In this document: piece after piece, positions 24,979 to 55,160 of the stretch
Layout of the letters: each line of letters begins with the position of its first letter
Position numbering within the stretch: position 1 is the first letter of the stretch
IMG/VR virus record: IMGVR_UViG_3300035661_000018
Location: 1 to 64,000 of that record
Reading direction: 5' to 3' (one strand)
From: a virus
DNA length: 64,000 nt
The notes under the pieces: model-generated
The model's database searches: none
Told to the model about the DNA's origin: nothing
What the model saw: the letters and a program-made list of their open reading frames with translations, nothing else
Program-made: the position numbers and the translations under genes

Positions 24979-25431
24979 ATGGCCAAACAGCGTCATACAC
25001 CTACACATTCCTCATGTAAGCAATGAGGAAAGCTCAAGGTGTGGAATTATCACTCCACAAATACGTATTGCTCTAACGCATGTCAAGCAGATTGGAAGTG
25101 GCGGAACGTAACAATTTTGCAGATTGAAGCTGGAGAAAAGTCATACCATGCTGTCAACACTCTAAAGCGATACCTATGCGAAAAAGTTGGTGAAAAATGT
25201 GCTGTGTGTGGTCAACTTCCGGAGTGGCAAGGTAAACCCTTGGTATTGCAAGTTGATCATATAGATGGAAACAGTGATAATAACTTTCCTTCAAACATCA
25301 GGTTGATTTGTCCAAATTGTCACACTCAAACGGATACATTTGGTACTAAAGGTCAAGGATCTAGGTATCAGAAGGTCACTAAACGTAACGCATATATACG
25401 AGAATACCGAGGGAGCTTGGCGCAGCGGTAG
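24979..25431 (+). pseudogene. HNH endonuclease with in-frame TGA in a zinc finger
   Basis: A 150-codon frame from ATG 24979, intact except for TGA at 25024-25026. The stop replaces the second Cys of a CxxC pair (SCKQ-stop-GKL, then YCSNACQADW). The HNH core follows: KCAVCGQLPEWQGKPL, LQVDHIDG, NIRLICPNCHTQT. A GTG at 25039 could give a product lacking the first finger half. The frame ends inside tRNA-Val. Confidence 0.8.
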
Positions 25432-25484
25432 CGCAACGCTCTTACACAGCGAAGGTCACAGGTTCGATCCCTGTAGCTCCTACA
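25411..25484 (+). tRNA. tRNA-Val (TAC)
   Basis: Acceptor GGGAGCT/AGCTCCT, loop CTTACAC, 3' end A-CA. The upstream HNH stop codon lies in its D loop. Confidence 0.9.
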
Positions 25485-25499
25485 TATTAGAGGAACAAA

Positions 25500-25628
25500 A
25501 TGTCCAACAAGTTTGACACAATCGACAAGATCGTCAGCCATGTGATGTTCGGGTTCTCGCCTGATGACTTCGCTCACTTCCAAGGCATCACGCTCGAAGC
25601 GATCTGGCACAAGATTCGCGCTGAATGA
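25500..25628 (+). CDS. small hypothetical protein
   Basis: A 42-residue ORF (MSNKFDTIDKIVSHVMFGFS) with GAGGA before the ATG. Its stop overlaps the ATG of the next HNH frame (ATGA). No family recognised. Confidence 0.55.
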   Translation: MSNKFDTIDKIVSHVMFGFSPDDFAHFQGITLEAIWHKIRAE

Positions 25629-25912
25629 AAGTTAACCAATACGGTCCACGTCGTGATGACGTAGATGTGTTTGTAGAGAACAGCACATATGCTCGTCATA
25701 TATTGAAAGAGCGTATCATGAAGCAACAGTTGCTGCCTAACAAATGCGCAATCTGCTAAATGTCTCCCGCGTGGAATGGAAAACCACTGATTCTAATTCT
25801 AGATCATATCAATGGAGTCAACAATGATAATAGACTTGACAATCTTAGGTTAATCTGTCATAATTGTGACTCGCAATTGCCGACATACAAATCACGCAAT
25901 CGCAAGAAGTAA
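25625..25912 (+). pseudogene. HNH endonuclease with in-frame TAA
   Basis: A 95-codon frame with one TAA at 25757-25759, just after the first zinc pair (NKCAIC-stop-MSPAWNGKPL). The rest is a full HNH core (LILDHINGV, RLDNLRLICHNCDSQLPTY). It ends three bases before tRNA-Ser. Confidence 0.8.
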
Positions 25913-25915
25913 ACT

Positions 25916-26002
25916 GGAAAGTTGGCCGAGTGGTTTAAGGCAGCAGTCTTGAAAATTGCCGGGTGTAACAGCCCCGTGAGTTCGAATCTCACACTTTCCG
26001 CA
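25916..26002 (+). tRNA. tRNA-Ser (TGA), second copy
   Basis: Perfect acceptor GGAAAGT/ACTTTCC, stem GCAGT/ATTGC, loop CTTGAAA, long variable arm, 3' end G-CA. Confidence 0.93.
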
Positions 26003-26004
26003 AA

Positions 26005-26129
26005 TACAGGATGGCCCGAACACCAACCAGGGAACACTTGAGACGCCTAGCGTCGTGGGTCTGCCGTAGAGTGTAAACGTCGTACTAGTCACCGATGTAT
26101 GTGAGGTTGGAGTCCTCACTCCTGTATCA
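26005..26129 (+). ncRNA. 125-base RNA with tRNA-like ends
   Basis: Perfect acceptor TACAGGA/TCCTGTA and T arm GTGAGG/CCTCAC with T-CA end. Between them are about 85 bases forming ACACT/AGTGT and GACGC/GCGTC helices in place of D and anticodon arms. No U33-type anticodon loop is seen. Confidence 0.65.
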
Positions 26130-26145
26130 GATAACTGGAGAAAAC

Positions 26146-26340
26146 ATGTTTCCTGTACTCTTTCGTACAACGTGGCGCACATCAGGCTATGCGTTAGCCC
26201 AGACAGTCACAGAATTCGACACGTACGAACTGGCTGAAAATGCAATCAAGGCTCTTGATGCATACCAGTCAAATCTTCATAAGACAACGAGTCACGTCAC
26301 TACGCTACCTCACACGGAAGCAATTCGTCTTTACCAATAA
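26146..26340 (+). CDS. small hypothetical protein
   Basis: A 64-residue ORF (MFPVLFRTTWRTSGYALAQT) with TGGAG before the ATG. No family recognised. Confidence 0.6.
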   Translation: MFPVLFRTTWRTSGYALAQTVTEFDTYELAENAIKALDAYQSNLHKTTSHVTTLPHTEAIRLYQ

Positions 26341-26352
26341 CAGGAGAAACAA

Positions 26353-26553
26353 ATTCCAATCTACACCTACAAATGCAGTCGCTGCAACACGACTGAAGAC
26401 TACCTCGTCAAGATCAATGATCCAATTCCTCCGTGCAAGGAATGTGGCAACCCTGACCAAGAGAAGCAATTGTCAACAGGCACAGGATTCTGCCTGATGG
26501 GCTACGGTTGGGCCAAGAACGGAATGAACGCCAAAAAGGTTGGTGACAGGTGA
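26353..26553 (+). CDS. FmdB-like zinc-ribbon protein with ATT start
   Basis: A 66-residue protein. IPIYTYKCSRCNTTEDYLV and CKECGNPD match the FmdB family of small zinc ribbons, which almost always begin MPIY. Here the start position is ATT, with AGGAG eight bases upstream. ATT is a rare but real start (infC). It may also be a mutated or misread ATG. Confidence 0.75.
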   Translation: MPIYTYKCSRCNTTEDYLVKINDPIPPCKECGNPDQEKQLSTGTGFCLMGYGWAKNGMNAKKVGDR

Positions 26554-26561
26554 AGACGCGC

Positions 26562-26759
26562 ACAGAAGTGTGAGTTGCTCTTGTGGCAACGGAGTCTGGC
26601 GACGATCACGTGTGGAATGGTAAGCCGTTAACCCTTGAGTTAGATCACGTAAATAGTGATAATACTGACAACAGTTTACGGAATTTGAGAGTGTTATGTC
26701 CGCACTGTCATTCTCAGACTCCAACGTTTAGGCGTAAGAAATCCGCGCGAGTGGCGTAA
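26562..26759 (+). pseudogene. frameshifted HNH fragment
   Basis: The final part VWNGKPLTLELDHVNSDN, then LRVLCPHCHSQTPTFR, is an HNH core. A zinc-pair remnant (CSCGNGVW) precedes it in another frame. The N-terminus is missing. The stop lies within tRNA-Leu. Confidence 0.75.
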
Positions 26760-26829
26760 TTGGTAGCCGCATCTGACTTAAAATCAGCCGCCCCTTGGGC
26801 GTACGGGTTCGAGTCCCGTCTCGCGCACA
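26745..26829 (+). tRNA. tRNA-Leu (TAA)
   Basis: Perfect acceptor GCGCGAG/CTCGCGC, loop CTTAAAA, long variable arm, 3' end A-CA. Confidence 0.92.
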
Positions 26830-26842
26830 TAAATAGACGACT

Positions 26843-26925
26843 GCCCCGATGGCGGAATCGGCAGACGCAGCAGGTTTAGGTCCTGCCGCTCTTTGAGTGT
26901 GGGGGTTCGAGTCCCCCTCGGGGCA
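26843..26925 (+). tRNA. tRNA-Leu (TAG), second copy
   Basis: Perfect acceptor GCCCCGA/TCGGGGC, stem GCAGG/CCTGC, loop TTTAGGT, long variable arm. A73 is followed by CGG, so CA is not encoded. Confidence 0.92.
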
Positions 26926-26997
26926 CGGAGCCAGGTAACACTGGGCATAATGCACTTCGTCCTCGATAACAGGCGATCTAAGGTGCGGGAGATTGAG

Positions 26998-27244
26998 ATG
27001 ACAAAACAAAGCGTCTGCTATGTAACGCTATGTAACGCTGGGCAATGAATCTGCGAACAAGTTTATCGACATTAGCAGTGAGTTCGTACGTGCGTACGAA
27101 TCTCCTGGTGGAGACGGGGTGGTGATCAAAGAGCCGACGTATCTGTCGGTCAGTGCAGACGGCCATAGAGTGTTTGACGCTTATGGTACTTGCTACTACA
27201 ATCCCAGGGGATGGATTGTGCTGAAGTGGAATGCCCGTGATTGA
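26998..27244 (+). pseudogene. small gene broken by a 10-base tandem duplication
   Basis: CTATGTAACG occurs twice in tandem (27018-27027, 27028-27037). Removing one copy restores an open frame from ATG 26998: MTKQSVCYVTLGNESANKFI and on to YNPRGWIVLKWNARD. As it stands the frame stops after 16 codons. Function unknown. Confidence 0.75.
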
Positions 27245-27292
27245 CACCCACATTTCGTCAAGTAAATACATGATGGCTCAGGCCATCTCAAT

Positions 27293-27368
27293 GTCGCAGA
27301 AGCTGAAAAGGAACAGCGCTATCCTCCGAAGGTAGAGAATGTGGGTTCGATTCCCATCTGCGGCTCCA
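27293..27368 (+). tRNA. tRNA-Arg (CCG)
   Basis: Acceptor GTCGCAG/CTGCGGC, stem CTATC/GGTAG, loop CTCCGAA, encoded CCA. Confidence 0.92.
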
Positions 27369-27370
27369 AT

Positions 27371-27480
27371 GCGGGAGTAGCTCAGTAGTGCACAGAGGGC
27401 TTACACATTTCGGCCGTACAGTGTGTAAGATGTAAGTGCTGTCTAGGATCGAGTCGGTAATAAGGGCGTGTAGCTAACGC
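27371..27480 (+). ncRNA. tRNA-like 5' half fused to a hairpin RNA
   Basis: GCGGGAGTAGCTCAG is a typical tRNA 5' end, but it runs into an 8-bp hairpin CTTACACA/TGTGTAAG and no T arm follows. Probably a rearranged tRNA. Confidence 0.4.
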
Positions 27481-27491
27481 TTGGAAGATCG

Positions 27492-27564
27492 ATGGGTGAT
27501 CAGGCGGTAGAGCAGCCAGTTTCTAACTGGAAGGTCGTTGGTTCGATCCCAACTTCCCGTACCA
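27492..27564 (+). tRNA. tRNA-Arg (TCT)
   Basis: Stem CCAG/CTGG, loop TTTCTAA, T arm GTTGG/CCAAC, encoded CCA. The acceptor has weak pairs and one T-T mismatch. Confidence 0.75.
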
Positions 27565-27568
27565 ATAT

Positions 27569-28258
27569 ATGAACGTCCAATACCAACTCGCAGAACTGCA
27601 GCCATCGGTTTTCCTGATCACGTCAGATAATCGGTACGATCTGGCACAACTATTTGCTTGTGTGCAGGAGTTCTACGAGAGTTCCGATCCGCAATGGAAA
27701 GGTAAACACTTCCCCCGTGAAGTGTTTGAACGTTGGTACGCACTGAATCAATGCGAAGACCACATCTTCTCGTATCCAATGGATTGGAGTGGATTCAACG
27801 TACCGAGTTGGGCGATAGACGAGTTCTATAAGCAGTCGCCGTATAACACCGATAACAACTTCTACGACAGAATGATCAAGCACATTGACAGCTTGATTTC
27901 TGAGCGTATAGGCGTTGACATCCCGTACTACCTCATCGGGACTCAGTCAAACGATTTGGAAACGCTGGATCACGAGATCGCTCATGGGTTGTACGCAACG
28001 TCTCCTGGCTACAAAATGATGATGGATGAGCAGATTGGCAACCTGCCAACACGGACTCGCAACCGCCTCGCAAGTGTGCTAACGAACATGGGATATGCTG
28101 AATCAGTGCACGATGATGAGATCCAGGCAAACTTTGCCACGGGATTGACGTCGTACTTTAAGGGCTTTCAGCGGTTCTGTCCACCATTTATTGAGGCGTT
28201 TGAGCAATACCGCCAACCATTCAATCCAGACTTCACGATAGTCCATCCTTGCCCATAA
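27569..28258 (+). CDS. putative zinc metallopeptidase-like protein
   Basis: A 229-residue protein with HEIAHGLYATSPGYK (about residues 136-150), an HExxH zinc motif, and a later acidic stretch ESVHDDEIQANFATG that could give the third ligand. Substrate unknown; related HExxH proteins are frequent in large phages. Starts five bases after tRNA-Arg without a clear SD. Confidence 0.7.
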   Translation: MNVQYQLAELQPSVFLITSDNRYDLAQLFACVQEFYESSDPQWKGKHFPREVFERWYALNQCEDHIFSYPMDWSGFNVPSWAIDEFYKQSPYNTDNNFYDRMIKHIDSLISERIGVDIPYYLIGTQSNDLETLDHEIAHGLYATSPGYKMMMDEQIGNLPTRTRNRLASVLTNMGYAESVHDDEIQANFATGLTSYFKGFQRFCPPFIEAFEQYRQPFNPDFTIVHPCP

Positions 28259-28261
28259 ATA
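28254..28261 (+). promoter_or_regulatory. T4-type late promoter
   Basis: CATAAATA, 25 bases before ATG 28286 and overlapping the previous stop. Confidence 0.7.
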
Positions 28262-28285
28262 TCCACTCACACAGTGGAGACTGGC

Positions 28286-28528
28286 ATGAAACTATTTGAA
28301 ATCTTGAACGAAATTGATGCAGGTGATCTGTATCTGGCACATATGGTCGATGATCGCCGCAACCGTGGTGAGCGTGATCGCAACTCTTACCTAACAGGCT
28401 TCTGGTTGATCGATCCGACGTCCGGTAAGAAGATTACCGGACCGTTCAAAGATAAGGAAGCAGCACTGCGCTTCAAGGCCAATCGCCCTGATAAGGTCCC
28501 TGCAAACGCTGTTGTAAAACCTCTGTGA
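28286..28528 (+). CDS. small late protein, LNE N-terminus
   Basis: An 80-residue protein (MKLFEILNEIDAGDLYLAHM) with GGAG before the ATG and a late promoter. ILNE fits the gp21-type site. The C-terminal half (DPTSGKKITGPFKDKEAAL) is compact and basic. Possible internal head protein. Confidence 0.7.
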   Translation: MKLFEILNEIDAGDLYLAHMVDDRRNRGERDRNSYLTGFWLIDPTSGKKITGPFKDKEAALRFKANRPDKVPANAVVKPL

Positions 28529-28537
28529 AAGTTTTAC

Positions 28538-28620
28538 GTCCCCATGGCTTAGGTAAATAGGTACAGCCAAACCTCTTAAAAGGGTTCGCTTTTGTCGGTT
28601 CGAATCCGACTGGGGATACA
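28538..28620 (+). tRNA. tRNA-Leu (TAA), second copy
   Basis: Acceptor GTCCCCA/TGGGGAT, stem AACCT/GGGTT, loop CTTAAAA, 3' end A-CA. Confidence 0.85.
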
Positions 28621-28622
28621 AA

Positions 28623-28925
28623 ATGAAAAAACAAACACCCGACGTACGACAGCTCGTGTACGTCGTGCAAGATTATGATCAGCAATTGTGTGGCGTCTAC
28701 ACCACACTGCGGCTAGCAGCAGAGCGCTACCAACACATCGTAGATCAAGACCTGACAAAGGAAGAGATCGAGACGATGATTGAAGAATATGGCGAAGAGT
28801 TTCGCTCTCAATTCGAACGGGCTCCCTGTATCGTTGTCTACCGACTAGACACAGGATGGATCTGGTCATACGATTCCTTGCACGAAATCAAACATGCTCT
28901 TGAGGGTGGAGAGCAATACGACTAA
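28623..28925 (+). CDS. hypothetical protein
   Basis: A 100-residue acidic protein (MKKQTPDVRQLVYVVQDYDQ) starting two bases after tRNA-Leu. It has no motif I recognise. It is followed by thioredoxin eight bases downstream. Confidence 0.65.
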   Translation: MKKQTPDVRQLVYVVQDYDQQLCGVYTTLRLAAERYQHIVDQDLTKEEIETMIEEYGEEFRSQFERAPCIVVYRLDTGWIWSYDSLHEIKHALEGGEQYD

Positions 28926-28933
28926 GGAAGACA

Positions 28934-29251
28934 ATGGCTATCGAAGCAACGAGCGAAACGTTCGAACAAGAAGTACTAAACAGTGATCTGCCCGTACTGG
29001 TTGATTTTTGGGCACCGTGGTGTGGACCGTGCAAAGCACTAGCGCCAACGTTTGAAGCGGTTTCTGCTGACTATGCAGGGAAGGTCAAATTCGTCAAGGT
29101 CAACGTTGACGAGACAGACCTTGCAAGTAAATATGGCGTCCGTGGCATCCCTGCGCTGCTGGCGTTCAGGGGAGGCCGGGTACAAGCGTCGAAGTCCGGC
29201 GCCGTTAGCAAGGCAGTGCTAACGCAACTTGTGGATGCTCAGTTGCTATGA
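28934..29251 (+). CDS. trxA: thioredoxin
   Basis: A 105-residue thioredoxin with active site FWAPWCGPCKAL (about residues 27-38), cis-Pro GIPALLAF and a normal length. It reduces disulfides and can feed ribonucleotide reductase. AAGGA precedes the ATG. The stop overlaps the next start (ATGA). Confidence 0.95.
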   Translation: MAIEATSETFEQEVLNSDLPVLVDFWAPWCGPCKALAPTFEAVSADYAGKVKFVKVNVDETDLASKYGVRGIPALLAFRGGRVQASKSGAVSKAVLTQLVDAQLL

Positions 29252-29508
29252 TCGAACAAAGCCCCGTGTTCTACTATATGTCGTTTGATGAGATCGTTAC
29301 AGATTTGATGCTGTACAAGATGTCAGAGGCAACAAAGCGGTACCTCAGGGGGCAGTCGGATCAAGCACAGGAAGTTGCGCGAGTAATGTTTCCCCTGATT
29401 AACAACTATTACAGGTTGACGGATCAGGCCAATACGCACACAAACGATATCCTACCGTCTGTGTTCTGTCAGAAGATATTTCGAACGATCTGGGGTCGTC
29501 TCCAATAA
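29248..29508 (+). CDS. hypothetical protein coupled to thioredoxin
   Basis: An 86-residue helical protein (MIEQSPVFYYMSFDEIVTDL) overlapping the thioredoxin stop. No family recognised. Confidence 0.6.
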   Translation: MIEQSPVFYYMSFDEIVTDLMLYKMSEATKRYLRGQSDQAQEVARVMFPLINNYYRLTDQANTHTNDILPSVFCQKIFRTIWGRLQ

Positions 29509-29564
29509 CGTTGATCGTCACTTCAAACGGTTATACGGTTACTTGACGGAAACTGTTTAGGATA

Positions 29565-29858
29565 ATGATGAGCAATTTCAATTTCGATGAATGGGCTGAA
29601 CTGTACCGAACAGACCCCCGCGCCTTCGACAAGAAGCGCCGTGAGGCAACAGATGCAGCAATTGCGAGCGCACCGGAGCATCTTCGTGCCAAGTTGCGCG
29701 AAACACAAACGCAATGTGATGCAATTCACACAACACAGCCGGGCCGCGAAGGTGCATCACGGATGTTCGCAATGATGCATGACAGTCTGTTGGACATGCA
29801 AAATGCGTGGTACGATCTCGCATTCGCCCACCGCGAATTGGCAGCCGTTGCCAAGTAG
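29565..29858 (+). CDS. DUF3135-like protein
   Basis: A 97-residue helical protein. FDEWAELYRTDPRAFDKKRR and the later RAKLRETQTQCDAI match DUF3135. Two ATGs (29565, 29568) are possible, with AGGATA upstream. Function unknown. Confidence 0.75.
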   Translation: MMSNFNFDEWAELYRTDPRAFDKKRREATDAAIASAPEHLRAKLRETQTQCDAIHTTQPGREGASRMFAMMHDSLLDMQNAWYDLAFAHRELAAVAK

Positions 29859-29897
29859 GTTGAAAACGGCTAAGGTATTTGACTAAATACCAAACAT

Positions 29898-29990
29898 GGA
29901 TGGTTAACCGCACAGGCGTGCGGCACTGTTTCGAAAACAGTTGGAGTCGGCTAGAACCCGGCTTGGGGATCAAGACCTCAGCCATCCGCA
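29898..29990 (+). tRNA. tRNA-Ser (CGA)
   Basis: Stem ACTGT/ACAGT, loop TTCGAAA, long variable arm, acceptor GGATGGT/GCCATCC, 3' end G-CA. T loop is ATCAAGA. Confidence 0.9.
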
Positions 29991-30064
29991 TAAGGTGAAC
30001 CACACCCGGCAATTAGAGCCTCAAGTGTCGTACCTACTCATAACTATACTCAGGGGAGACTCTG

Positions 30065-30325
30065 CTGCGTCCAGACCATGATAAACTCTTTCACGAGCCA
30101 GAACGAGCTGGCTCCTCTAACGGTTACAACAACGTTCGTACCCGTCGCGCGTACGAAGAACGTTTTGATGATCGATATTACGACGGCGTGTTGTCGCCGT
30201 CGATGATTGGCTCTGTTGCCCGTGAGGGCATGTGCCTCCGCCACAACTGACATTGGAGCGAGGACAAGGGCCAGCGCTACAACACCAACGCAATCCGTGG
30301 CTTGATTCATAAGAACGTTGACTGA
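30065..30325 (+). pseudogene. conserved-looking small gene with CTG start position and in-frame TGA
   Basis: The frame LRPDHDKLFHEPERAGSSNG... runs 86 codons with one TGA at 30248-30250 (CLRHN-stop-HWSEDKG). AGGGGAG lies upstream of CTG 30065, and no ATG, GTG or TTG is available there. Both defects are single-base changes from ATG and probably TGG. Function unknown. Confidence 0.55.
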
Positions 30326-30365
30326 CCCTATCCGCTTCCGGATAGTTTGCAATAAGGAGATTCAC

Positions 30366-30500
30366 ATGCTTTGTTGCAAATGCCAGTCCCGCCTGTCGCT
30401 GAACTTGGAGAAGTTGAAGCTGATGAATAAATACACCTCTGCGGAGGTGCAGCGTGACAACAGTGCGTACATACATCCGTGCAGTTGTGCACGGACATGA
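30366..30500 (+). CDS. small cysteine-rich protein
   Basis: A 44-residue ORF MLCCKCQSRLSLNLEKLK ending HPCSCART, with AAGGAG before the ATG. CCKC and CSC could bind zinc. A 7-bp hairpin (CTATCCG/CGGATAG) lies just upstream. A late-promoter match lies inside it. Confidence 0.55.
   Translation: MLCCKCQSRLSLNLEKLKLMNKYTSAEVQRDNSAYIHPCSCART
30426..30433 (+). promoter_or_regulatory. possible late promoter
   Basis: AATAAATA, 20 bases before the GTG at 30454, inside the previous small gene. Confidence 0.4.
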
Positions 30501-30678
30501 GACAGTAGTATTTGAAATTCCAGCATGGAAACCAGGCGTCTGGATTCATTTGTCGAAGAGGGATGTACCACCAATTGAACGAGCACATTTACACCCTGGA
30601 TTCAGGTGTAACGTGACGATCAACATTGACGCAGAAACACCAGACCAACTTCATATCCGTGATTGGGGTTTGGATTGA
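30454..30678 (+). CDS. hypothetical protein, GTG start
   Basis: A 74-residue protein from GTG 30454, with GGAGG six bases upstream. It overlaps the previous gene in another frame. Sequence (VHGHETVVFEIPAWKPGVWI) suggests a small beta-rich fold. No family recognised. Confidence 0.6.
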   Translation: MTTVRTYIRAVVHGHETVVFEIPAWKPGVWIHLSKRDVPPIERAHLHPGFRCNVTINIDAETPDQLHIRDWGLD

Positions 30679-30682
30679 GCCT

Positions 30683-30758
30683 GTCCCCATAGTTCAAATG
30701 GACAGAATAAGACACTCCTAAGGTCAAGATCCGAGTTCGAACCTCGGTGGGGGCTCCA
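30683..30758 (+). tRNA. tRNA-Arg (CCT)
   Basis: Acceptor GTCCCCA/TGGGGGC, T arm CCGAG/CTCGG, loop CTCCTAA on a weak stem (GAC/GTC core), encoded CCA. Confidence 0.75.
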
Positions 30759-30761
30759 AAC

Positions 30762-30995
30762 ATGAAAAAGTACATCACGGTAATCAACCCACAAGGCGCC
30801 ACTCTAGATGGGGTGTTTGTTCCGATTAGCCACAGAATCCTAATTGAGGGAACAACCATGCATGGGTATGAGAGTACTGCAAAGCTGTTCCCCACATATC
30901 AACAGTTTGCTGATTTTGTCAGCCAAGCTGCGCGATCTCCATCAGGTACGACTGGGACCGTGCGTACCCTCAGTTGGGAAGTTGCCGACGCGTAA
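30762..30995 (+). CDS. small hypothetical protein
   Basis: A 77-residue ORF (MKKYITVINPQGATLDGVFV) starting three bases after the CCA of tRNA-Arg. No separate SD; GGGGGCT of the tRNA is the only candidate. Function unknown. Confidence 0.6.
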   Translation: MKKYITVINPQGATLDGVFVPISHRILIEGTTMHGYESTAKLFPTYQQFADFVSQAARSPSGTTGTVRTLSWEVADA

Positions 30996-31018
30996 AGCGT
31001 CATATATACTTGAATCAT

Positions 31019-31104
31019 GCTGGTGTCGCATAGCGGCTATTGCACCGGTCTTGTAAGCCGGCAGGGAAACCTAATCGTGAGTTCGAGTCTCACCGCCAGC
31101 ACCA
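31019..31104 (+). tRNA. tRNA-Thr (TGT) with an extra-long variable region
   Basis: Acceptor GCTGGTG/CGCCAGC, stem CCGGT/GCCGG, loop CTTGTAA, encoded CCA. About 15 bases of variable region (with GG/CC pairing) are unusual for threonine. Confidence 0.85.
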
Positions 31105-38199: not shown

Positions 38200-38775
38200 A
38201 TGCCAAAGACCAGAACAGCTACGCCTCGTGAATTTGAAATTCGTACAGAAAATCGGTATACGTTGCATCCCCTCGATAAGAAGCGATGCACTGTGTGTGA
38301 AATTGTGTACGATGGGATCGTTGACCATTTTGACATCCACCACCTCAAACTTGACGGTACATATTCATATGCAGGACAATGTAAGCAATGTCTAGCAGCC
38401 ATTCGTGCTGATCGGACGATGACATATAAGTCTGACATATCTCTGTACGTCAAGCGACTACTCCCAGCAGTTCGGTGTCGAGCAAAAGAAGTTGGCGTTG
38501 AGTTCAATCTCACACCCAACGCTCTGATCGAACAGTGGAATCGACAGCATGGCCTGTGCTATTACACTCACATACCCATGGACTTACAAGCCACCAGCGC
38601 GTCGGGAAAAGCCCCTCACCATGACTTTCCATCGTTAGATCGTAAGACCCCCAAAGACGGTTACACGGTGAATAACGTAGTATGGACTACCTTCGCGGTG
38701 AACAGAATGAAAAATGATCTAACAGACAATTTGTTTGTTGAACTGTGTCGCAAGGTACTAACTTATCATGGCTAA
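38200..38775 (+). CDS. HNH-like endonuclease
   Basis: A 191-residue protein with zinc pairs CTVCEIVYDG and CKQCLAAI, then GLCYYTHIPMDL and SLDRKTPKDGYTVNNVVW, the pattern of a divergent HNH family common in large phages. Its 3' end overlaps the start of the DprA-like gene by eight bases. Likely mobile endonuclease. Confidence 0.78.
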   Translation: MPKTRTATPREFEIRTENRYTLHPLDKKRCTVCEIVYDGIVDHFDIHHLKLDGTYSYAGQCKQCLAAIRADRTMTYKSDISLYVKRLLPAVRCRAKEVGVEFNLTPNALIEQWNRQHGLCYYTHIPMDLQATSASGKAPHHDFPSLDRKTPKDGYTVNNVVWTTFAVNRMKNDLTDNLFVELCRKVLTYHG

Positions 38776-39298
38776 ATATTTCGCCGGAATTGGTTCAAGG
38801 GAGACACCTGATGACGTGCTGGAGCAAATGCGTGAGCTGGCAAAGTTGGCTGCGCGTCTCAACTGGTCTCTGCGTTCTGGAGCAGCTCCAGGCGCTGATA
38901 CAGCGTTCGAACAGGGTTGTGATCTGGCTGGGGGATTGAAAGAAATCATGTTGCCGTGGAAAGGGTTTAACGGCAGCACCTCTCCTTATGCAAAGCACAA
39001 TGAAGCAGCCTTCCAAGTTGCATCCGTTATCCACCCCGCATGGTCTTTCCTGAAACCCGCAGCAAAGCAATTGGCCGCGCGCAATATGCAACAGATTATG
39101 GGGGAAGACATGAATAACCCTGTAAAATGTGTAATTTGCTGGACTAGAGATGGTGCTCGAACGCATCGCGAGTACAGTCACAAAACAGGTGGAACTGGAA
39201 CAGCCATTGCCCTCGCGTCTCTGTTTGATATTCCCGTGTTTAATTTGAAGCGCCCGTTGGATCATGACATGGCTGTTGAGTTCCTTCAATCAGTATAA
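38768..39298 (+). CDS. DprA-like (SLOG) nucleotide-binding protein
   Basis: A 176-residue Rossmann-like protein. YFAGIGSRETPDDVL, LRSGAAPGADTAFEQGC and KTGGTGTAIALASL match the DprA/LOG superfamily that binds nucleotides or single-stranded DNA. Its 3' end is followed at once by an opposing GIY-YIG gene, beyond which a second diverged 3' end occurs. Confidence 0.85.
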   Translation: MAKYFAGIGSRETPDDVLEQMRELAKLAARLNWSLRSGAAPGADTAFEQGCDLAGGLKEIMLPWKGFNGSTSPYAKHNEAAFQVASVIHPAWSFLKPAAKQLAARNMQQIMGEDMNNPVKCVICWTRDGARTHREYSHKTGGTGTAIALASLFDIPVFNLKRPLDHDMAVEFLQSV

Positions 39299-40002
39299 CG
39301 CCACGCCATTCCGTTGAGGGTATGTGAATAGCGATAGCCCTTACAGCATGCAACAATGTTGGCGGCACTTATGTCATACGCCAGAGCGGCCGCTTTGATT
39401 GACGGAAACGTAGCAACTACAACATTGTCCTGTAGGCACTCCACACGCTTCCGACGGAGAGCATGCCTACTTTCTGTGATTGGCTGCAGTGGTTCCCCCG
39501 AATATGCCCAACGAAATCCGTATGCTTGGTTGGTCCGGCCCTTGCAACATTGTAGAATGCTCGCGATTCTGACAGATAGAGCGGCAGCTGCTTGAGAGGC
39601 TGACGGGAACGTCTGCACCAAATCCCCATCCATGGTATATTGGATCACTTCCTTAGTCTGTCGCTTAGCATTACCCGTTCTTCGATCTGAACTGCATCCG
39701 TAAACATTTGTTAGAATTCCTGTCCCGGTTACCAGCAGGCCGTACTTGGTAATCAATGCATCTTCCATGACATATGCGGTGTGTTCATCCAAGTGCTCTT
39801 GCACCTTAATAATTTTGACCTCGTACCCCTGAGACCAAATTGAGTTAATACGTTCACATTTAATTGCATTAGTCCAAGTTGTTTTGGGCCGCTTGGCCTC
39901 TGCTAAATGCGACCTGTCACGATAACCTACACCCTTACCTACATAGAACGGGTGATCATTCCTGGGATCAATTAGTTCGTAAACGTAATAGTTGCCGGTC
40001 AT
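39286..40002 (-). CDS. GIY-YIG homing endonuclease with NUMOD repeats
   Basis: A 238-residue protein from ATG 40002 (GGGGAG upstream). YYVYELIDPRNDHPFYVGKG is the GIY-YIG start; two NUMOD1-like DNA-binding repeats follow (VQTFPSASQAAAALSV and VVATFPSIKAAALAYDIS). It overlaps the DprA-like 3' end by 13 bases, the same arrangement as the ligase/GIY-YIG pair at 0.5 kb. Late promoter at 40023. Confidence 0.9.
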   Translation of the reverse strand: MTGNYYVYELIDPRNDHPFYVGKGVGYRDRSHLAEAKRPKTTWTNAIKCERINSIWSQGYEVKIIKVQEHLDEHTAYVMEDALITKYGLLVTGTGILTNVYGCSSDRRTGNAKRQTKEVIQYTMDGDLVQTFPSASQAAAALSVRIASILQCCKGRTNQAYGFRWAYSGEPLQPITESRHALRRKRVECLQDNVVVATFPSIKAAALAYDISAANIVACCKGYRYSHTLNGMAWRYTD

Positions 40003-40022
40003 CCTGAACTCCCCTATCATCT

Positions 40023-40030
40023 TATTTATG
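40023..40030 (-). promoter_or_regulatory. T4-type late promoter (leftward)
   Basis: CATAAATA on the minus strand, 21 bases before ATG 40002. Confidence 0.7.
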
Positions 40031-40033
40031 ATA

Positions 40034-40191
40034 GTACACGCGACGGATGTGAGAGCATTAAGACTTACAACCGGAAAACTGGGGGTACGGGAACTGCTAT
40101 TGCATTTGCTTCATCTCAAGATATACCAATTTTTAACCTGAACAATCCGTTCCGCTACGAATATGCGATCGATTTTCTTCAAACCAACTAA
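40034..40191 (+). pseudogene. old 3' end of the DprA-like gene
   Basis: Reads TRDGCESIKTYNRKTGGTGT, then ASSQDIPIFNLNNPF and a stop. The intact gene upstream has TRDGARTHREYSHKTGGTGT and ASLFDIPVFNLKRP. It is the stranded former end beyond the GIY-YIG gene. Confidence 0.88.
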
Positions 40192-40200
40192 GGACTACTC

Positions 40201-40488
40201 ATGTTGTTTGGAATTCTGTTTTTCGCCGCCCTGCCTGCAGGGATTCTCAAGCGTGATGTGTACGGCAATCGTCGGTTAGGTTCACATTACCTGTGCTCAC
40301 TTTGCGGCACCGCAGAGCAGAAGCATGGGGCACACTTTGTGTCCAAAATTTCACCCCAGTACTGTAAAGGGTGCGTTGACATCGTCAATACGACGAACGA
40401 AACCCACCACGACCGGTATCAATTCTTCCTTCAATACATGGAAGGAACGAACCAACAAGTAACTTCAAGGATTACGAATGGTCGATGA
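40201..40488 (+). CDS. small protein with N-terminal hydrophobic segment and zinc pairs
   Basis: A 95-residue protein. MLFGILFFAALPAGIL is a membrane or signal segment; CSLCGTAEQKH and CKGC could bind metal. Ends inside the next gene. Function unknown. Confidence 0.65.
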   Translation: MLFGILFFAALPAGILKRDVYGNRRLGSHYLCSLCGTAEQKHGAHFVSKISPQYCKGCVDIVNTTNETHHDRYQFFLQYMEGTNQQVTSRITNGR

Positions 40489-50564: not shown

Positions 50565-50673
50565 GTGTCTATTGCTCCGTCCGGGCTGGCTTGGTGAAGG
50601 CCTCTGACTGTTAATCAGAAGGATGCAGAAAATGCATGCGAGGATCGTAACCTCGGGACGGAGCAATAGACAC
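50565..50673 (+). repeat. 18-bp inverted repeat enclosing tRNA-Asn
   Basis: 50565-50582 and 50656-50673 are exact complements. Seven pairs are the tRNA acceptor; eleven more (GTGTCTATTGC/GCAATAGACAC) extend it outward without a break. Confidence 0.9.
50576..50665 (+). tRNA. tRNA-Asn (GTT) with long variable arm and extended acceptor
   Basis: Stem TCTGA/TCAGA, loop CTGTTAA, perfect acceptor TCCGTCC/GGACGGA, G73, 3' end G-CA. The variable arm contains an ATGCA/TGCAT hairpin, unusual for Asn. Confidence 0.85.
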
Positions 50674-50682
50674 TTAGACAAT

Positions 50683-50758
50683 TCCTCTTTAGCTCAGTTG
50701 GTAGAGCGTTGCACTGTTAATGCAAATGTCGTTGGTTCGAACCCAGCAAGAGGAGCCA
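50683..50758 (+). tRNA. tRNA-Asn (GTT), canonical copy
   Basis: Perfect acceptor TCCTCTT/AAGAGGA, stem TTGCA/TGCAA, loop CTGTTAA, G73, encoded CCA. Confidence 0.95.
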
Positions 50759-50763
50759 AATTT

Positions 50764-50837
50764 GGGATGCAAGCTTTAAGGTGAAGCAACTGGCTCTTAC
50801 CCAGTAGAACTCGGTTCAATACCGTGGCGTCCTACCA
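50764..50837 (+). tRNA. tRNA-Lys (CTT)
   Basis: Stem ACTGG/CCAGT, loop CTCTTAC, acceptor GGGATGC/GCGTCCT, encoded CCA. One T-stem mismatch. Confidence 0.85.
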
Positions 50838-50838
50838 C

Positions 50839-50912
50839 TCTTCCGTTGGTGTAATTGGCAACACAGCTGGCTTTTACGCAGTCGTTCTCGAATCGTTGCC
50901 GAGGCGGAGGAC
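50839..50912 (+). tRNA. tRNA-Lys-like (TTT), weak
   Basis: Loop CTTTTAC on a mismatched stem, acceptor TCTTCCG/CGGAGGA, T loop abnormal. No CA end. Possibly decaying. Confidence 0.5.
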
Positions 50913-50954
50913 TTAGACGATTATAGAACAACATAATATCTGGAGACGAAATAG

Positions 50955-51191
50955 ATGATTGGTGTCACGACCCTCTCGCGTGAAGAACGCGTTAAGCTGA
51001 AGAAGGCGCTCGAACGAATCGAGGAAGAAGCAACGAAGACGTACGCGATCACACTAAAGATCGTCGTCAAGGAAACTCGCAGTGACGACCTTGCAGAACC
51101 GGGAAGTGCAGTTGACAGCATTGTTGACGTGCTGCTACCTGGCTCTGAAAGGCTGGTCGTCCTCAACCTGACGTTCCCTGACGAAGAATAA
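50955..51191 (+). CDS. small acidic hypothetical protein
   Basis: A 78-residue protein (MIGVTTLSREERVKLKKALE) with GGAGA upstream. The N-terminal helix is followed by two strand-like segments. Function unknown. Confidence 0.65.
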   Translation: MIGVTTLSREERVKLKKALERIEEEATKTYAITLKIVVKETRSDDLAEPGSAVDSIVDVLLPGSERLVVLNLTFPDEE

Positions 51192-51201
51192 CAGGACAAA
51201 T

Positions 51202-51275
51202 TACCGCGTAGCTCAGAAGTAGAGCAACACTCTTACAAAGTGAAGGTCGAGATTGCAAAATTCTCCGTGGCAACA
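51202..51275 (+). tRNA. tRNA-Val-like (TAC)
   Basis: Stem CACT/AGTG, loop CTTACAA, acceptor TACCGCG/CGTGGCA with one mismatch. The T loop is 9 bases (TTGCAAAAT), so function is doubtful. 3' end A-CA. Confidence 0.55.
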
Positions 51276-51279
51276 AAAT

Positions 51280-51355
51280 GGTCGCGTAGCTCAATTGGTA
51301 GAGCGTTCTCTTGATAGGGGGAATGGTTGTAGGTTCAACTCCTACCGTGGCCACA
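51280..51355 (+). tRNA. tRNA-Ile (GAT)
   Basis: Acceptor GGTCGCG/CGTGGCC, stem TTCTC/GGGGA, loop TTGATAG, 3' end A-CA. Confidence 0.88.
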
Positions 51356-51360
51356 AATAT

Positions 51361-51434
51361 ACCCGCGTAATTCAGTGGTAGAATGCACGCTTGATAGGCG
51401 TGAGGTCGTAGGTTCAAGTCCTACCGTGGGTACA
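51361..51434 (+). tRNA. tRNA-Ile (GAT), second copy
   Basis: Acceptor ACCCGCG/CGTGGGT, perfect stem CACGC/GCGTG, loop TTGATAG, 3' end A-CA. Confidence 0.92.
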
Positions 51435-51467
51435 ATGTTTAGGATACGGTACTATACCATATCGACT

Positions 51468-51475
51468 CATAAATA
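51468..51475 (+). promoter_or_regulatory. T4-type late promoter
   Basis: CATAAATA, 21 bases before the HNH ATG, with AGGAG between. Confidence 0.7.
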
Positions 51476-51495
51476 ACTTCAGCACAGGAGTTAGC

Positions 51496-52134
51496 ATGCA
51501 GTCTATGGAAATTATTCGTCAGGTGGAGATTGAGCGGCTTATTGAGGCATATGCTGAAACAGGGTCAATCGCAGGTGTGGGTCGAGTGATGGGAATATCT
51601 GTTAAGGCTCCATGTGTTCGCAAGCTAATAAAGCAGCGCCTGGCAGCAGCAAGCCCATCATTAATGAAGGAGCATTCCGCCCGCGGATCGTATAGCATTG
51701 AGCAAATAAGAGCTGCAGTAGCGAAATCGATCTGTATGTCAGAAGTGTTGCGAGAAATTGGATTAAGTACACATGGGTCTTGCGCTAATGTAATCAAGCG
51801 AATCATGAAAGAACACAACATTCTTTCAGATCACTTTGATCCTGCTTTGGCGCTTCGTAAAGGTAACGCTCGTAGATGGTCACCAGACGAAGTGTTTATC
51901 GAGCACAGCCCAATCCCACGGGCCACTCTGCACACGCATGTTAAACGGCATAACGTAATTGGGACACCGGTGTGCAGTGAATGTGGAGTTGCAACTACTT
52001 ACAATCGTAAGCCGATTTCTCTGACCGTTGACCATATAAACGGCGTTAGTGATGATAATCGAATAGAAAATCTAAGGTGGCTATGTCCAAATTGTCATTC
52101 ACAGACGAGTACGTATTGTGGGAAGAACAAGTGA
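51496..52134 (+). CDS. HNH endonuclease
   Basis: A 212-residue intact paralogue of the 31.2 kb gene: shared helical part (ICMSEVLREIGLSTHGS), a linker with WSPDEVFIEHSPIPRATLHT, and the HNH core VCSECGVATTYNRKPI, LTVDHINGVSDDNRIENLRW, CPNCHSQT. Same promoter arrangement. It precedes tRNA-Ala. Confidence 0.9.
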   Translation: MQSMEIIRQVEIERLIEAYAETGSIAGVGRVMGISVKAPCVRKLIKQRLAAASPSLMKEHSARGSYSIEQIRAAVAKSICMSEVLREIGLSTHGSCANVIKRIMKEHNILSDHFDPALALRKGNARRWSPDEVFIEHSPIPRATLHTHVKRHNVIGTPVCSECGVATTYNRKPISLTVDHINGVSDDNRIENLRWLCPNCHSQTSTYCGKNK

Positions 52135-52162
52135 CGGTGTTTCTTGCAGAGAAGTAAAGAAC

Positions 52163-52237
52163 GGGCCTCTAGTATAGGGGATATTATGCCGTGCTTGCAC
52201 CGCAGAGACCTAGGGTTCGATTCCCTTCTCTCCTACA
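52163..52237 (+). tRNA. tRNA-Ala (TGC)-like, acceptor mismatched
   Basis: Loop CTTGCAC and T loop TTCGATT are good. The acceptor strands (GGGCCTC, CTCTCCT) hardly pair, so the two halves may come from different genes. 3' end A-CA. Confidence 0.55.
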
Positions 52238-52238
52238 A

Positions 52239-52682
52239 ATAAAAAAGACATGCACACGATGCAAGCAAGAAAAGCTTCTACAAGACTTCACACGAGACTC
52301 ATCCCAAAAAGAAGGACATTATTCTGCTTGTAAATTGTGCAAGCGTTTCACAGCCAGGATTCGTCATAAAGGTGATAATGTGGCGCAGGCGCGAAACAAG
52401 CTAAGAGTACAGCAAACATCGCAGATGATTCGTGATAAAAAGTCTTCAGGATGCATTGTATGTGGTGAGCTTGAGCCAGTCTGCTTAGATTTACACCACA
52501 CGGATCCAAGTAAGAAAGACGTTGATCCAAACAAGCTGTGGAACCGTGTGTGGGATAAGTTCATGCAGGAGGCACAAAAGTGTATTGTCGTGTGTAGTAA
52601 CTGTCACAAAAAGATTCATGCAGGGATGATCGTCAGCCAGTGTGACGGGACTGCAACAATGTTAAGAGCTGATCAAGTGTAA
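52239..52682 (+). CDS. HNH endonuclease, start codon ATA or lost
   Basis: A 147-codon frame. IKKTCTRCKQEKLLQDF lines up with relatives that start M; the codon is ATA and no SD is near. The zinc pairs and HNH core are intact (CIVCGELEPVCLDLHH, KCIVVCSNCHKKIHAG), close to the 4.3 kb gene. The frame ends 15 bases inside tRNA-Thr. Confidence 0.78.
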   Translation: MKKTCTRCKQEKLLQDFTRDSSQKEGHYSACKLCKRFTARIRHKGDNVAQARNKLRVQQTSQMIRDKKSSGCIVCGELEPVCLDLHHTDPSKKDVDPNKLWNRVWDKFMQEAQKCIVVCSNCHKKIHAGMIVSQCDGTATMLRADQV

Positions 52683-52741
52683 GTGGTGACACGCCTCTCT
52701 CGTAAGGAGGAGAACGGAGTTCAATTCTCCGGATCAGCACA
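52668..52741 (+). tRNA. tRNA-Thr (CGT)
   Basis: Perfect acceptor GCTGATC/GATCAGC, stem CCTCT/GGAGG, loop CTCGTAA, 3' end A-CA. Confidence 0.92.
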
Positions 52742-52745
52742 AATT

Positions 52746-52818
52746 GCCCCTATAGTTAAATGGTATAACAGGACCTTTGTAACGTTCAGTCCACAGTTCG
52801 ATTCTGTGTAGGGGCACA
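52746..52818 (+). tRNA. tRNA-Thr (TGT), second copy
   Basis: Perfect acceptor GCCCCTA/TAGGGGC, loop TTTGTAA with one stem mismatch, 3' end A-CA. Confidence 0.85.
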
Positions 52819-52841
52819 CACTGCAAACAATGGAGGATGCT

Positions 52842-52889
52842 ATGACACAGCTAAACGCAGAACCAATGGAGTACCGCGCAAGTCGGTAA
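52842..52889 (+). CDS. possible 15-residue peptide
   Basis: MTQLNAEPMEYRASR with GGAGG six bases before the ATG. The ribosome site is better than for many larger genes here, but the peptide is too short to judge. Confidence 0.3.
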   Translation: MTQLNAEPMEYRASR

Positions 52890-52901
52890 ACGGAGTTTCA
52901 A

Positions 52902-52925
52902 ACAAGTTCAAACAAGTTCAAACGA
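52902..52925 (+). repeat. short tandem repeat before a gene
   Basis: CAAACAAGTT occurs twice, then a partial third copy, directly before ATG 52926 and in place of a normal SD. Confidence 0.6.
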
Positions 52926-53264
52926 ATGTCTGAACTTTACAGGCACTTTTCCAAAGACTGGGAGCATGTACTTGATTACTCTGATCAAGCACTACTCGAC
53001 TTGTACAACCAAGAATCATACGGTGGCCGCGTAGAGTCCAACAACGGATTCGCTGTCGGTAAGAAATGGTTGAACGTCTACGTAACAGCATGGAAACAAT
53101 CGATCAGAGAAGGTACTCTGTTCGTCCATGAACTGTACGAAGACCCAGGTTTCCCACATTGGTGGCTAGATAGCGTACTGAAGGGTGTGTACGACAATCT
53201 AGACGTCTGGTGGCAAGACTACAGCAAGACGAAAGTACATCATGATCTCACAAGCGCTTCATAG
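52926..53264 (+). CDS. hypothetical protein
   Basis: A 112-residue aromatic-rich protein (MSELYRHFSKDWEHVLDYSD, FPHWWLDSVLKGVYDNLDVW). It overlaps the next gene by 23 bases. No family recognised. Confidence 0.65.
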   Translation: MSELYRHFSKDWEHVLDYSDQALLDLYNQESYGGRVESNNGFAVGKKWLNVYVTAWKQSIREGTLFVHELYEDPGFPHWWLDSVLKGVYDNLDVWWQDYSKTKVHHDLTSAS

Positions 53265-53565
53265 CAAGTTTCTAACAAACACAGACGATACGGGCCGATT
53301 TGTTGTGTATTCACAGCGAACCGGTCGTCGGTACTACGTTGAGCCGATCGAAACACAACACACCCCCAAGTGGGGTTCAGTTGATCCAGCAACGGGTGAA
53401 CTGATGCACAAGAAAGGCGATGGCAAGTACCGTGGCGGTGTCTCTCCAAAGGAGAGCCTGGTCACAGCTGAAAACGGGTTCAGCATCATTCATGAGCTTG
53501 GTATTGGCGTGAGCCCACACCATGCAATCGATGTGATTGATGCTAAGTATCCAGACAAAGCATAA
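53242..53565 (+). CDS. hypothetical protein
   Basis: A 107-residue protein (MISQALHSKFLTNTDDTGRF, TGRRYYVEPIETQHTPKWGS). Beta-rich N-terminal half. Starts inside the previous gene. Function unknown. Confidence 0.65.
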   Translation: MISQALHSKFLTNTDDTGRFVVYSQRTGRRYYVEPIETQHTPKWGSVDPATGELMHKKGDGKYRGGVSPKESLVTAENGFSIIHELGIGVSPHHAIDVIDAKYPDKA

Positions 53566-53651
53566 CAGGCCAATGTACAAACAGTGTCCCGGGTTCATTG
53601 TTATGCTGTAGTAGGGTTTCCTCACTTTGTCCCACCTATACAAAGTGATAC

Positions 53652-53727
53652 GGGGGCGGGGTGTTTACCGGATAGCATATTACCCTTGCAAGGTTTTGGA
53701 TCGAGTTCGAGTCTCGACGCCTCCACA
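53652..53727 (+). tRNA. tRNA-Ala (TGC)
   Basis: Acceptor GGGGGCG/CGCCTCC, loop CTTGCAA, 3' end A-CA. The outer anticodon-stem pairs are weak. An 8-bp hairpin (TCACTTTG/CAAAGTGA) lies upstream. Confidence 0.8.
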
Positions 53728-53796
53728 AACGCTGTTGATTTACCCTGTTGTAATCGAGAAGATTATGTCACAAATGGGAATAGTCAGGGGCGAGAA

Positions 53797-54012
53797 ATGG
53801 AAAAAGCACTCGTGGTATTCGGTTGCACGATAGTTGGCGGTGGTGCTGGCTATCTAGTCAGCCCCGATGGAACTGCCGTGACAATCGGAAGTGCAGTCGG
53901 TTTTCTGATTGGCTGCATGTTGGTCAGTGGCAGCGGCGGCGACGGCGGAAGTGCAGCGATCGTTGACCTGATTGACGACCTCACTGACGGCTTCGCAACC
54001 AGTCACCACTGA
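53797..54012 (+). CDS. small glycine-zipper membrane protein
   Basis: A 71-residue protein from ATG 53797. Two hydrophobic Gly-rich segments (VFGCTIVGGGAGYLV and IGSAVGFLIGCMLVSG) suggest a membrane glycine zipper, then an acidic tail. Function unknown. Confidence 0.6.
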   Translation: MEKALVVFGCTIVGGGAGYLVSPDGTAVTIGSAVGFLIGCMLVSGSGGDGGSAAIVDLIDDLTDGFATSHH

Positions 54013-54020
54013 CAATTTTT

Positions 54021-54090
54021 GGGGATTAGTACAGCTGGAAAAACGCTAGCCTTGCACGCTTGAGTCAGGAGTTCGATCCTCCACCAGCTA
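54021..54090 (+). pseudogene. tRNA-Ala (TGC) remnant
   Basis: 5' half GGGGATTAGTACAGCTGG and loop CTTGCAC are Ala-like, but the 3' acceptor strand (CCAGCTA) does not pair with it. Confidence 0.55.
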
Positions 54091-54113
54091 GAAGTCAAAC
54101 AAAGACAAATAAT

Positions 54114-54187
54114 AGCTCCATAGCTCAATGGTAGAGCACTGCGTTGACATCGCAGATACGAAGGTTCGATTCCTTCTGGAGCTACCA
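54114..54187 (+). tRNA. tRNA-Val (GAC)
   Basis: Perfect acceptor AGCTCCA/TGGAGCT, stem CTGCG/CGCAG, loop TTGACAT, encoded CCA. Confidence 0.95.
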
Positions 54188-54198
54188 ATTAAAGGAAC

Positions 54199-54535
54199 AT
54201 GATGATTTACGTCGCAGCACCACACAGCGACCCTGATCTTGCGATCAAGGACGCTAGGGTGCGCGAGTTCTACGAGTTTGAGACCACCAAATATAGTCAG
54301 ATGCCTGATGATTGGGTCTACTGGCAACAGTACAGTGAGCAAATGCTGAGCAAGTGTGACGGGATGGTCTTGCTGCTGCTAGAAGGCTGGGATAAGTCGA
54401 CGGGCGTCCTCGCAGAACTCCGTACTGCCGAGACAACGGAATCCCATCCTCGTGACGGATGTCCGCTGGAAGCAGTTGTACGTTCCCGGACAGGGAATCG
54501 AATCATTCGTCATCAAACTGATAACCACTAAATAA
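54199..54535 (+). CDS. DUF1937-like protein with probable frameshift
   Basis: MMIYVAAPHSDPD and MLSKCDGMVLLLLEGWDKST match DUF1937, a Rossmann-like family related to deoxyribosyltransferases. After LRTAE the zero frame runs to 54531 with unlikely sequence; one base out, the frame reads RNPILVTDVRWKQLYVPGQG to a stop at 54533-54535 and looks like the true C-terminus. Confidence 0.7.
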
Positions 54536-54558
54536 GTGGTCCAGTTAAGGGAGCCCTT

Positions 54559-54717
54559 ATGCGTCTGCAAGACCTTTCATTCATCACAGAACAACAACTC
54601 CGTGAGCAAGCTGTTGCCCAACAGGCTCATGCTTTGCTAGAATCTGCAACTCCTGAGGAACTGATTTTGTCGGAACCTCGCAGCGCAGAAGACGTAATTG
54701 CGGAGTTGTACAAGTGA
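54559..54717 (+). CDS. small late-type protein, FITE N-terminus
   Basis: A 52-residue protein, MRLQDLSFITEQQLREQAVA, with a CTAAATAAG late-promoter-like motif and GGGAG upstream. FITE fits the T4 internal-protein site (FIxE). Its stop overlaps the GTG of the next gene; as an upstream small helical partner it could instead be an antitoxin. Confidence 0.65.
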   Translation: MRLQDLSFITEQQLREQAVAQQAHALLESATPEELILSEPRSAEDVIAELYK

Positions 54718-55067: not shown

Positions 55068-55082
55068 CGCTCCATCTTTCAT

Positions 55083-55155: not shown

Positions 55156-55160
55156 AAACA

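Follow-up and report, generated by a model that had tools for sequence, protein, structure and literature searches.

The closest described systems to the locus presented here are the WHO elements of the yeasts Torulaspora and Lachancea, which reside at FBA1 and for which allele-specific cutting has been proven by experiment (PMC7282813). Like the phage locus, they combine an endonuclease gene with a replacement 3′ end and leave the target gene chimeric, and they likewise show a former 3′ end that persists as a decaying fragment and serves, as it may in the phage, as homology arm, discordant divergence of 5′ and 3′ parts, and several insertions of one family (PMC7282813). Gene hybrids are also formed by fungal mitochondrial mobile ORFs, in atp6, atp9, cox2 and nad3 of Glomus and in atp6 of Allomyces; here too a foreign C-terminal part replaces the native one, which is stranded downstream, and in one case (atp9) the enzyme is of the GIY-YIG type, as in the phages (PMC3630166). 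The free-standing seg/mob endonucleases of T4 are, as far as the accessible part of their description goes, similar in being GIY-YIG enzymes of large phages (phrog_314) with short gene overlaps, co-conversion of flanks, and late or middle promoters (PMC2988022). The cyanophage enzyme F-CphI, which takes part in collaborative homing with the psbA intron, is again free-standing beside its target gene, and a changed site prevents self-cutting (PMC6083498).

The DNA analyzed here (the window) comprises 64,000 nucleotides, positions 1 to 64,000 of the IMG/VR virus record IMGVR_UViG_3300035661_000018. It contains a DprA-like gene whose final 13 nt also belong to a convergent GIY-YIG gene, followed by a second version of the DprA 3′ end:

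38768–39298, + strand: DprA-like gene in use, probably a native 5′ part to about 39142 joined to an incoming 3′ end
39143–39298, + strand: putative incoming (replacement) DprA 3′ end, TRDGARTH...EFLQSV and stop; scores below the stranded end against L053, L054 and L056
39286–40020, − strand: GIY-YIG homing-type endonuclease gene, 244 aa, convergent to the DprA-like gene
40023–40030, − strand: late-promoter-like box CATAAATA upstream of the endonuclease, matching T4 TATAAATA at 7/8 positions; a motif match only
40036–40191, + strand: stranded, startless, probably native DprA 3′ end, recognized by tblastn, the selection test and its position 9 nt before the next gene
40201–40488, + strand: downstream gene, its start resembling the membrane-protein gene after dprA in L053, L054 and L069

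The DprA-like gene (176 aa) matches phrog_768, 'DprA-like DNA recombination-mediator protein', over residues 2–175 (E 6e-52), and the opposing gene product carries a Pfam LEM-3_GIY-YIG domain (E 5e-14) together with NUMOD1 and I-HmuI NUMOD-like domains. Its start codon is probably the second possible one, at 40002 (MTGNYYVY), which is preceded by GGGGAG. By tblastn its relatives are phage homing endonucleases, and in an alignment with these Y12, Y14, Y26, R34, E86 and N105 are invariant; the nuclease domain and the conserved Y, R, E and N place the predicted protein in the GIY-YIG homing endonuclease family. A single-protein search of viral contigs with this endonuclease as query returned only the identical sibling contig. 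Within its own genome, the DprA end finds its second copy by tblastn at 40012–40185 (E 2e-14, 50% identity, query residues 118–175). The stranded end at 40036–40191 reads TRDGCESIKTYNRKTGGTGTAIAFASSQDIPIFNLNNPFRYEYAIDFLQTN followed by a stop codon, and across 50 aligned codons it agrees with the fused end in 28/50 residues, 9/50 codons and 54.7% of bases; the Smith-Waterman score of this pair is 151, compared with 36 for the 99th percentile of mismatched gene-tail/region pairs. The initial annotation had described a DprA-like gene overlapped at its 3′ end by a facing GIY-YIG gene and followed by a diverged duplicate of its last 50 codons; the domain matches, the 13 nt overlap and the tblastn hit bear out both statements, including positions and motifs. 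The same arrangement, 100% identical, is found in another IMG/VR contig, L003, and a DNA-level search of the whole region against phage records gave no match. The late-promoter-like box sits five bases from the stranded end. On the other side, an HNH/endonuclease VII-like gene (38200–38775) overlaps the DprA start and has homologs at the corresponding position in L053 (62%) and L069 (55%), which means that DprA is flanked on both sides by unrelated endonuclease genes.

In order to identify the native end, the locus was compared with relatives (L053, L054, L058, L069 and L079) that keep parts of the dprA neighborhood and have another gene directly behind dprA; none of the five carries a GIY-YIG gene in this position. 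In L053, L054 and L069 the start codon after dprA opens a small hydrophobic protein, and a similar small-protein start (40201) comes 9 nt after the stranded DprA end in the window; on this comparison the stranded end is the one that retains the native junction with the next gene. The gene at 40201–40488 itself combines the start of the small membrane-protein gene with the C-terminal part of a 247-residue L054 protein and is probably a deletion fusion. Against L053, L054 and L056 the stranded end scores 144, 158 and 156, compared with 116, 113 and 129 for the fused end, while L058 is neutral between the two. As the locus has no close known relative (the nearest reaches at best 55% protein identity), these comparisons give moderate support for a native stranded end and an incoming fused end.

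A sister case lies at the start of the window, where a different GIY-YIG gene overlaps the end of an RNA ligase gene by 15 nt:

133–495, + strand: RNA ligase/tail fibre attachment catalyst, C-terminal part (phrog_562)
451–495, + strand: putative RNA ligase replacement end, KYRELGFRDTSISD and stop; poor match to endonuclease-less relatives
481–1161, − strand: second, different GIY-YIG endonuclease, convergent to the RNA ligase gene (Pfam GIY-YIG, E 2e-8; phrog_314 homing endonuclease)
1196–1245, + strand: stranded, apparently native RNA ligase end, KYKELGFKDTSVEKAE and stop, the stop overlapping the next start codon (ATGA)

The duplication is real, although shorter than that of DprA, the whole case spanning 133–1245, and the claim of two cases in one window is upheld. 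The late-type box upstream of this endonuclease is a 6/8 match only. For the RNA ligase the contigs of L053 and L054 provide the comparison as loci L294 and L293, respectively, neither of which has an endonuclease there. Their RNA ligases end in KYKELGFKDTSVDKKED (L294) and KYKELGFKDTATEKTSAE (L293), each followed by a stop codon; the stranded end of the window shares 31/36 bases with the former and 30/36 with the latter, compared with 23/36 and 21/36 for the end in use. This comparison decisively favors the stranded RNA ligase end as native and the fused end as foreign. In a third locus, L133, which carries a metallophosphoesterase gene, the stranded remnant SGHWHKDIEL (then stop) meets the same gene junction as in the endonuclease-less L138, with 83% identity upstream, and there is strong support that it is the native end. 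Taken together, the relatives demonstrate what sequence comparison identifies as empty, uninserted sites.

Several further features of this genome were recorded. The RNA ligase frame of the window has an in-frame TAG at 128–130 and 12 nt fewer than the sibling contig (L292), the frame of which instead has a 1-nt deletion. Differences between the two contigs are concentrated in 128–324, and the following ~2.2 kb are identical; candidate explanations are an assembly error at the contig end, genuine decay, or a tract of recombination next to the homing site. This genome also has a third GIY-YIG gene in convergent position, of the same family (G000 78598–79566; L295:16598–17566), which shares ~60 nt with the end of a dCTP deaminase-like gene; a stranded end is not visible there. 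About 44 predicted tRNA genes occur in clusters (4173–12044, 25411–31104 and 50576–58841) among HNH and GIY-YIG genes.

To assess recurrence in other phages, we collected loci from viral contigs (80 DprA, 80 metallophosphoesterase and 80 GIY-YIG loci, most of them metagenomic) and searched 3.2 Mb of viral sequence for genes with a further copy of their C-terminal end downstream in the same orientation. Outside the window, seven more cases with a GIY-YIG gene emerged from other phages; they involve several gene families, and the endonuclease is convergent in five of them and on the same strand in two:

Metallophosphoesterase, L187: convergent GIY-YIG, score 174
Metallophosphoesterase, L194: convergent GIY-YIG, score 147
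126-residue gene, L286: convergent GIY-YIG, score 144
147-residue phrog_447 gene, L254: convergent GIY-YIG, score 104
Metallophosphoesterase, L127: convergent GIY-YIG, score 88
L217 gene: same-strand GIY-YIG, score 125
YspA-type SLOG protein, L139: same-strand GIY-YIG, score 91

The stranded metallophosphoesterase end of L127 contains a stop codon. Two decayed forms were also found, one in L133 and the other in the cultured Ochrobactrum phage vB_OspM_OC, where FFGHWH and a stop codon are left behind a convergent endonuclease. After leaving out whole-gene paralogs, repeats and shared endonuclease motifs, 9/10 strong partial-end duplications enclose a GIY-YIG gene, the exception being L079. A directed test for stranded ends at 144 endonuclease ORFs comprised 63 convergent and 58 same-strand tests. 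Scores of at least 45 were reached by 8/63 convergent tests, where ~0.2 would be expected from mismatched pairs; one of the eight is a tRNA artefact, which leaves 7/63 real positives, counting the window's own two. Clear same-strand positives number 2/58. The apparent case at 7897–8535 was discarded, the similarity being between antisense readings of tRNA genes. By these counts the arrangement recurs beyond chance, and the search of other genomes that the initial annotation had proposed as a check thus turned up the pattern, in the seven outside cases and the two decayed forms.

Its further suggestion, that this is a general way for such elements to enter gene ends, is supported with refinements. 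The recurrence in several gene families supports it, but not every convergent endonuclease fits. In the Rhizobium phage RHph_I1_18 (L010), three convergent homing endonuclease genes overlap the ends of their target genes, ribonucleotide reductase by 24 nt, metallophosphoesterase by 31 nt and RNA ligase 2 by 8 nt; stranded ends were sought there for ribonucleotide reductase and RNA ligase 2 and not found, and the dCTP deaminase case likewise falls outside the pattern. An alignment of FYVGKG-type enzymes covered 27 loci, most of which lie in other contexts; none of them gave a stranded end that rose above the background scores of 22–39.

The metallophosphoesterases also bear on the exchange of gene ends. 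Between L187 and L194 the N-terminal part is 77% identical and the tail 52%, a discordance reached by 4% of control pairs; for L127 and L133 the values are 80% and 60% (6.5% of control pairs). It is clear in these two pairs only, where it is suggestive of end swapping, and its absence from the other endonuclease-bearing metallophosphoesterase pairs speaks against replacement of ends by a homing element. A correlation of tail with N-terminus over all DprA homologs was set aside, as the subfamilies differ in length.

The anatomy of the unit is similar across cases. Where the endonuclease is convergent, it overlaps the gene end by 0–38 nt, and because of this overlap the replaced end, where overlapping, cannot be inherited apart from the endonuclease. 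A TATAAATA-like box lies upstream of the endonuclease start with 8/8 matches in 5/14 cases and at least 7/8 in 10/14, compared with 0.9% (8/8) and 5.7% (at least 7/8) in random stretches; these boxes match the consensus of the T4 late-promoter motif and are putative promoters. The endonucleases of L187, L194, L139 and L254 have a common leader behind the late-type box that ends in an AGGAG-TNTCAGCATG-like sequence with possible pairing, and no Rfam family matched this leader. Base differences between fused and stranded ends, on which a resistance of the replaced end could rest, are present. The stranded metallophosphoesterase ends start at FGHWH, a motif conserved among these enzymes, and since they begin at this conserved motif, the cut is presumably made there.

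Three described kinds of element were considered for the DprA locus and rejected. A group I intron does not apply, since an Rfam scan of the window returned tRNAs only and the coding sequence is already complete ahead of the endonuclease. The element is not an intergenic insertion of the T4 seg/mob type, as it lies inside coding sequence and the native end is displaced. Nor is it a WHO element proper, having GIY-YIG and NUMOD domains only and not an intein-derived protein with zinc fingers; it appears to work like a WHO element without being one. What is found is an endonuclease gene between an apparently intact chimeric gene and a stranded, probably native fragment, the organization of a homing element that replaces 3′ ends.

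We therefore read the locus, with a probability of roughly 0.8, as a homing element without intron or intein, made up of a replacement 3′ end, a convergent GIY-YIG endonuclease and its own late-type promoter. In a co-infected cell, the endonuclease would cut the target gene of the element-free phage close to its 3′ end, within a conserved coding motif; candidate motifs are about the WTRDG codons in DprA, FGHWH in metallophosphoesterase and KYKELGFKD in RNA ligase. Repair would then copy the unit from the donor into the cut site, separating its halves. The left one, joined to the incoming end, would form an intact, differently spelled gene, presumably immune to the enzyme, and the right one, which is the 3′ end that the recipient had before, would be pushed behind the endonuclease and no longer be part of the gene. 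It could act as right homology arm in the next homing event and then decay. From the arrangement we infer the cutting and its exact site, the immunity conferred by the replaced end, present mobility, expression, and the role of the stranded end as homology arm. The fused end seems to travel with the endonuclease, and both strand orientations occur.

The most serious rival, which we consider improbable though worth weighing, is passive co-conversion, in which an ordinary free-standing endonuclease brings along a foreign 3′ end as its co-conversion tract, the stranded copy results from imprecise joining at the right end, and the element makes no use of either end. Phage homing endonucleases normally co-convert their flanks (PMC2988022), and some convergent endonucleases have no stranded end. 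A comparison of the Sinorhizobium phages phiM12 and phiN3 also speaks for it: most of the metallophosphoesterase gene is nearly identical, as is the following gene, but the last ~150 nt of the metallophosphoesterase differ at 9–17 per 30 bases, and phiM12 has gained an HNH gene there, a related event of end swap and endonuclease gain without a stranded copy. The joint gain of end and HNH gene in phiM12 is at the same time evidence for the homing element. What co-conversion does not account for is that the break point of the stranded copy coincides, at FGHWH, among several metallophosphoesterases whose endonucleases differ, and that overlaps of up to 38 nt keep replacement end and endonuclease from being inherited apart.

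A tandem duplication of the gene end, with an endonuclease inserted between the copies later, would explain why the two copies are adjacent. At L079:6506–8125, an NAMPT gene is separated by 70 nt, which hold no endonuclease, from a diverged repeat of its last ~38 codons downstream; this could be an intermediate of such a process, or possibly an element that has lost its endonuclease. The divergence of the copies argues against prior duplication. If the stranded copy is modeled as a duplicate that drifted away from the end in use, at 54.7% base identity, 13.3±2.3 identical residues are expected for the DprA ends, compared with the 28/50 observed, and 83% of simulated drifting copies contain a stop, while the real stranded end is open. 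In each of the nine end pairs tested (eight enclosing an endonuclease, and L079), the number of identical residues exceeds what drift would leave (largest P 0.0065). The excess residue identity and the open frame indicate that both ends diverged while functional, in different lineages: coding selection has evidently shaped both, and the two DprA ends have, on this test, diverged under purifying selection and do not represent a decayed tandem duplicate. The copies thus differ like two functional alleles rather than like a gene and a drifting copy, the stranded RNA ligase end resembles other phages more than it does the copy next to it, and 9/10 strong partial-end duplications enclose a GIY-YIG gene. 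Duplication before insertion is accordingly very unlikely, and the initial annotation is not refuted on this count, which it had itself named, given the allele-like divergence and the endonuclease-less relatives that mark the stranded copy as native. An assembly chimera of two phage strains, which the metagenomic origin of the record and a dense cluster of changes relative to the sibling contig near the window start might suggest, can be dismissed in view of the 100% identical DprA arrangement in the sibling contig, the same anatomy in many contigs and the decayed form in the cultured phage vB_OspM_OC.

Beyond the single locus, we lean, with less confidence, towards a widespread unnamed class in large phages, in which an inseparable GIY-YIG gene and recoded end, like a natural home-and-rescue gene drive, would repeatedly invade conserved, even active-site, codons of several genes and keep exchanging C-terminal ends between lineages. 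Such a class would account for C-terminal mosaicism and for orphan fragments of gene ends in phage genomes, would predict endonuclease cut sites from sequence alone as the start of the stranded fragment, and would provide natural allele pairs, one allele presumably sensitive and the other resistant; with the cultured Sinorhizobium phages phiM12 and phiN3, a related event is already accessible to experiment.

In the open-access literature we found no phage precedent for the replacement of a gene end, and one in a subscription journal may have been missed. The T4 seg/mob genes differ in lying between genes and in having their cut sites at distances of hundreds or thousands of bases, and the accessible part of their description mentions neither a replacement gene end nor a stranded fragment (PMC2988022). 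In the case of F-CphI, protection comes from a group I intron and not from a replaced gene end (PMC6083498). Mitochondrial mobile ORFs are mostly of the LAGLIDADG type, run along the direction of the gene, sometimes in frame, and, unlike the phage elements, have no phage-type late promoter (PMC3630166). WHO proteins are intein-derived with zinc fingers and act in the yeast nucleus on one main target gene (PMC7282813), whereas the phage elements use GIY-YIG enzymes, are usually antisense, overlap the gene end and have several target genes. The idea itself is thus already known in biology from yeast WHO elements and fungal mitochondrial mobile ORFs, which show how an intron-less endonuclease invades conserved coding sequence without destroying the gene; apparently new are its occurrence in phages, the other enzyme class and the mostly antisense arrangement. 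Phages appear to reach the same solution with unrelated enzymes, usually in the opposite gene orientation.
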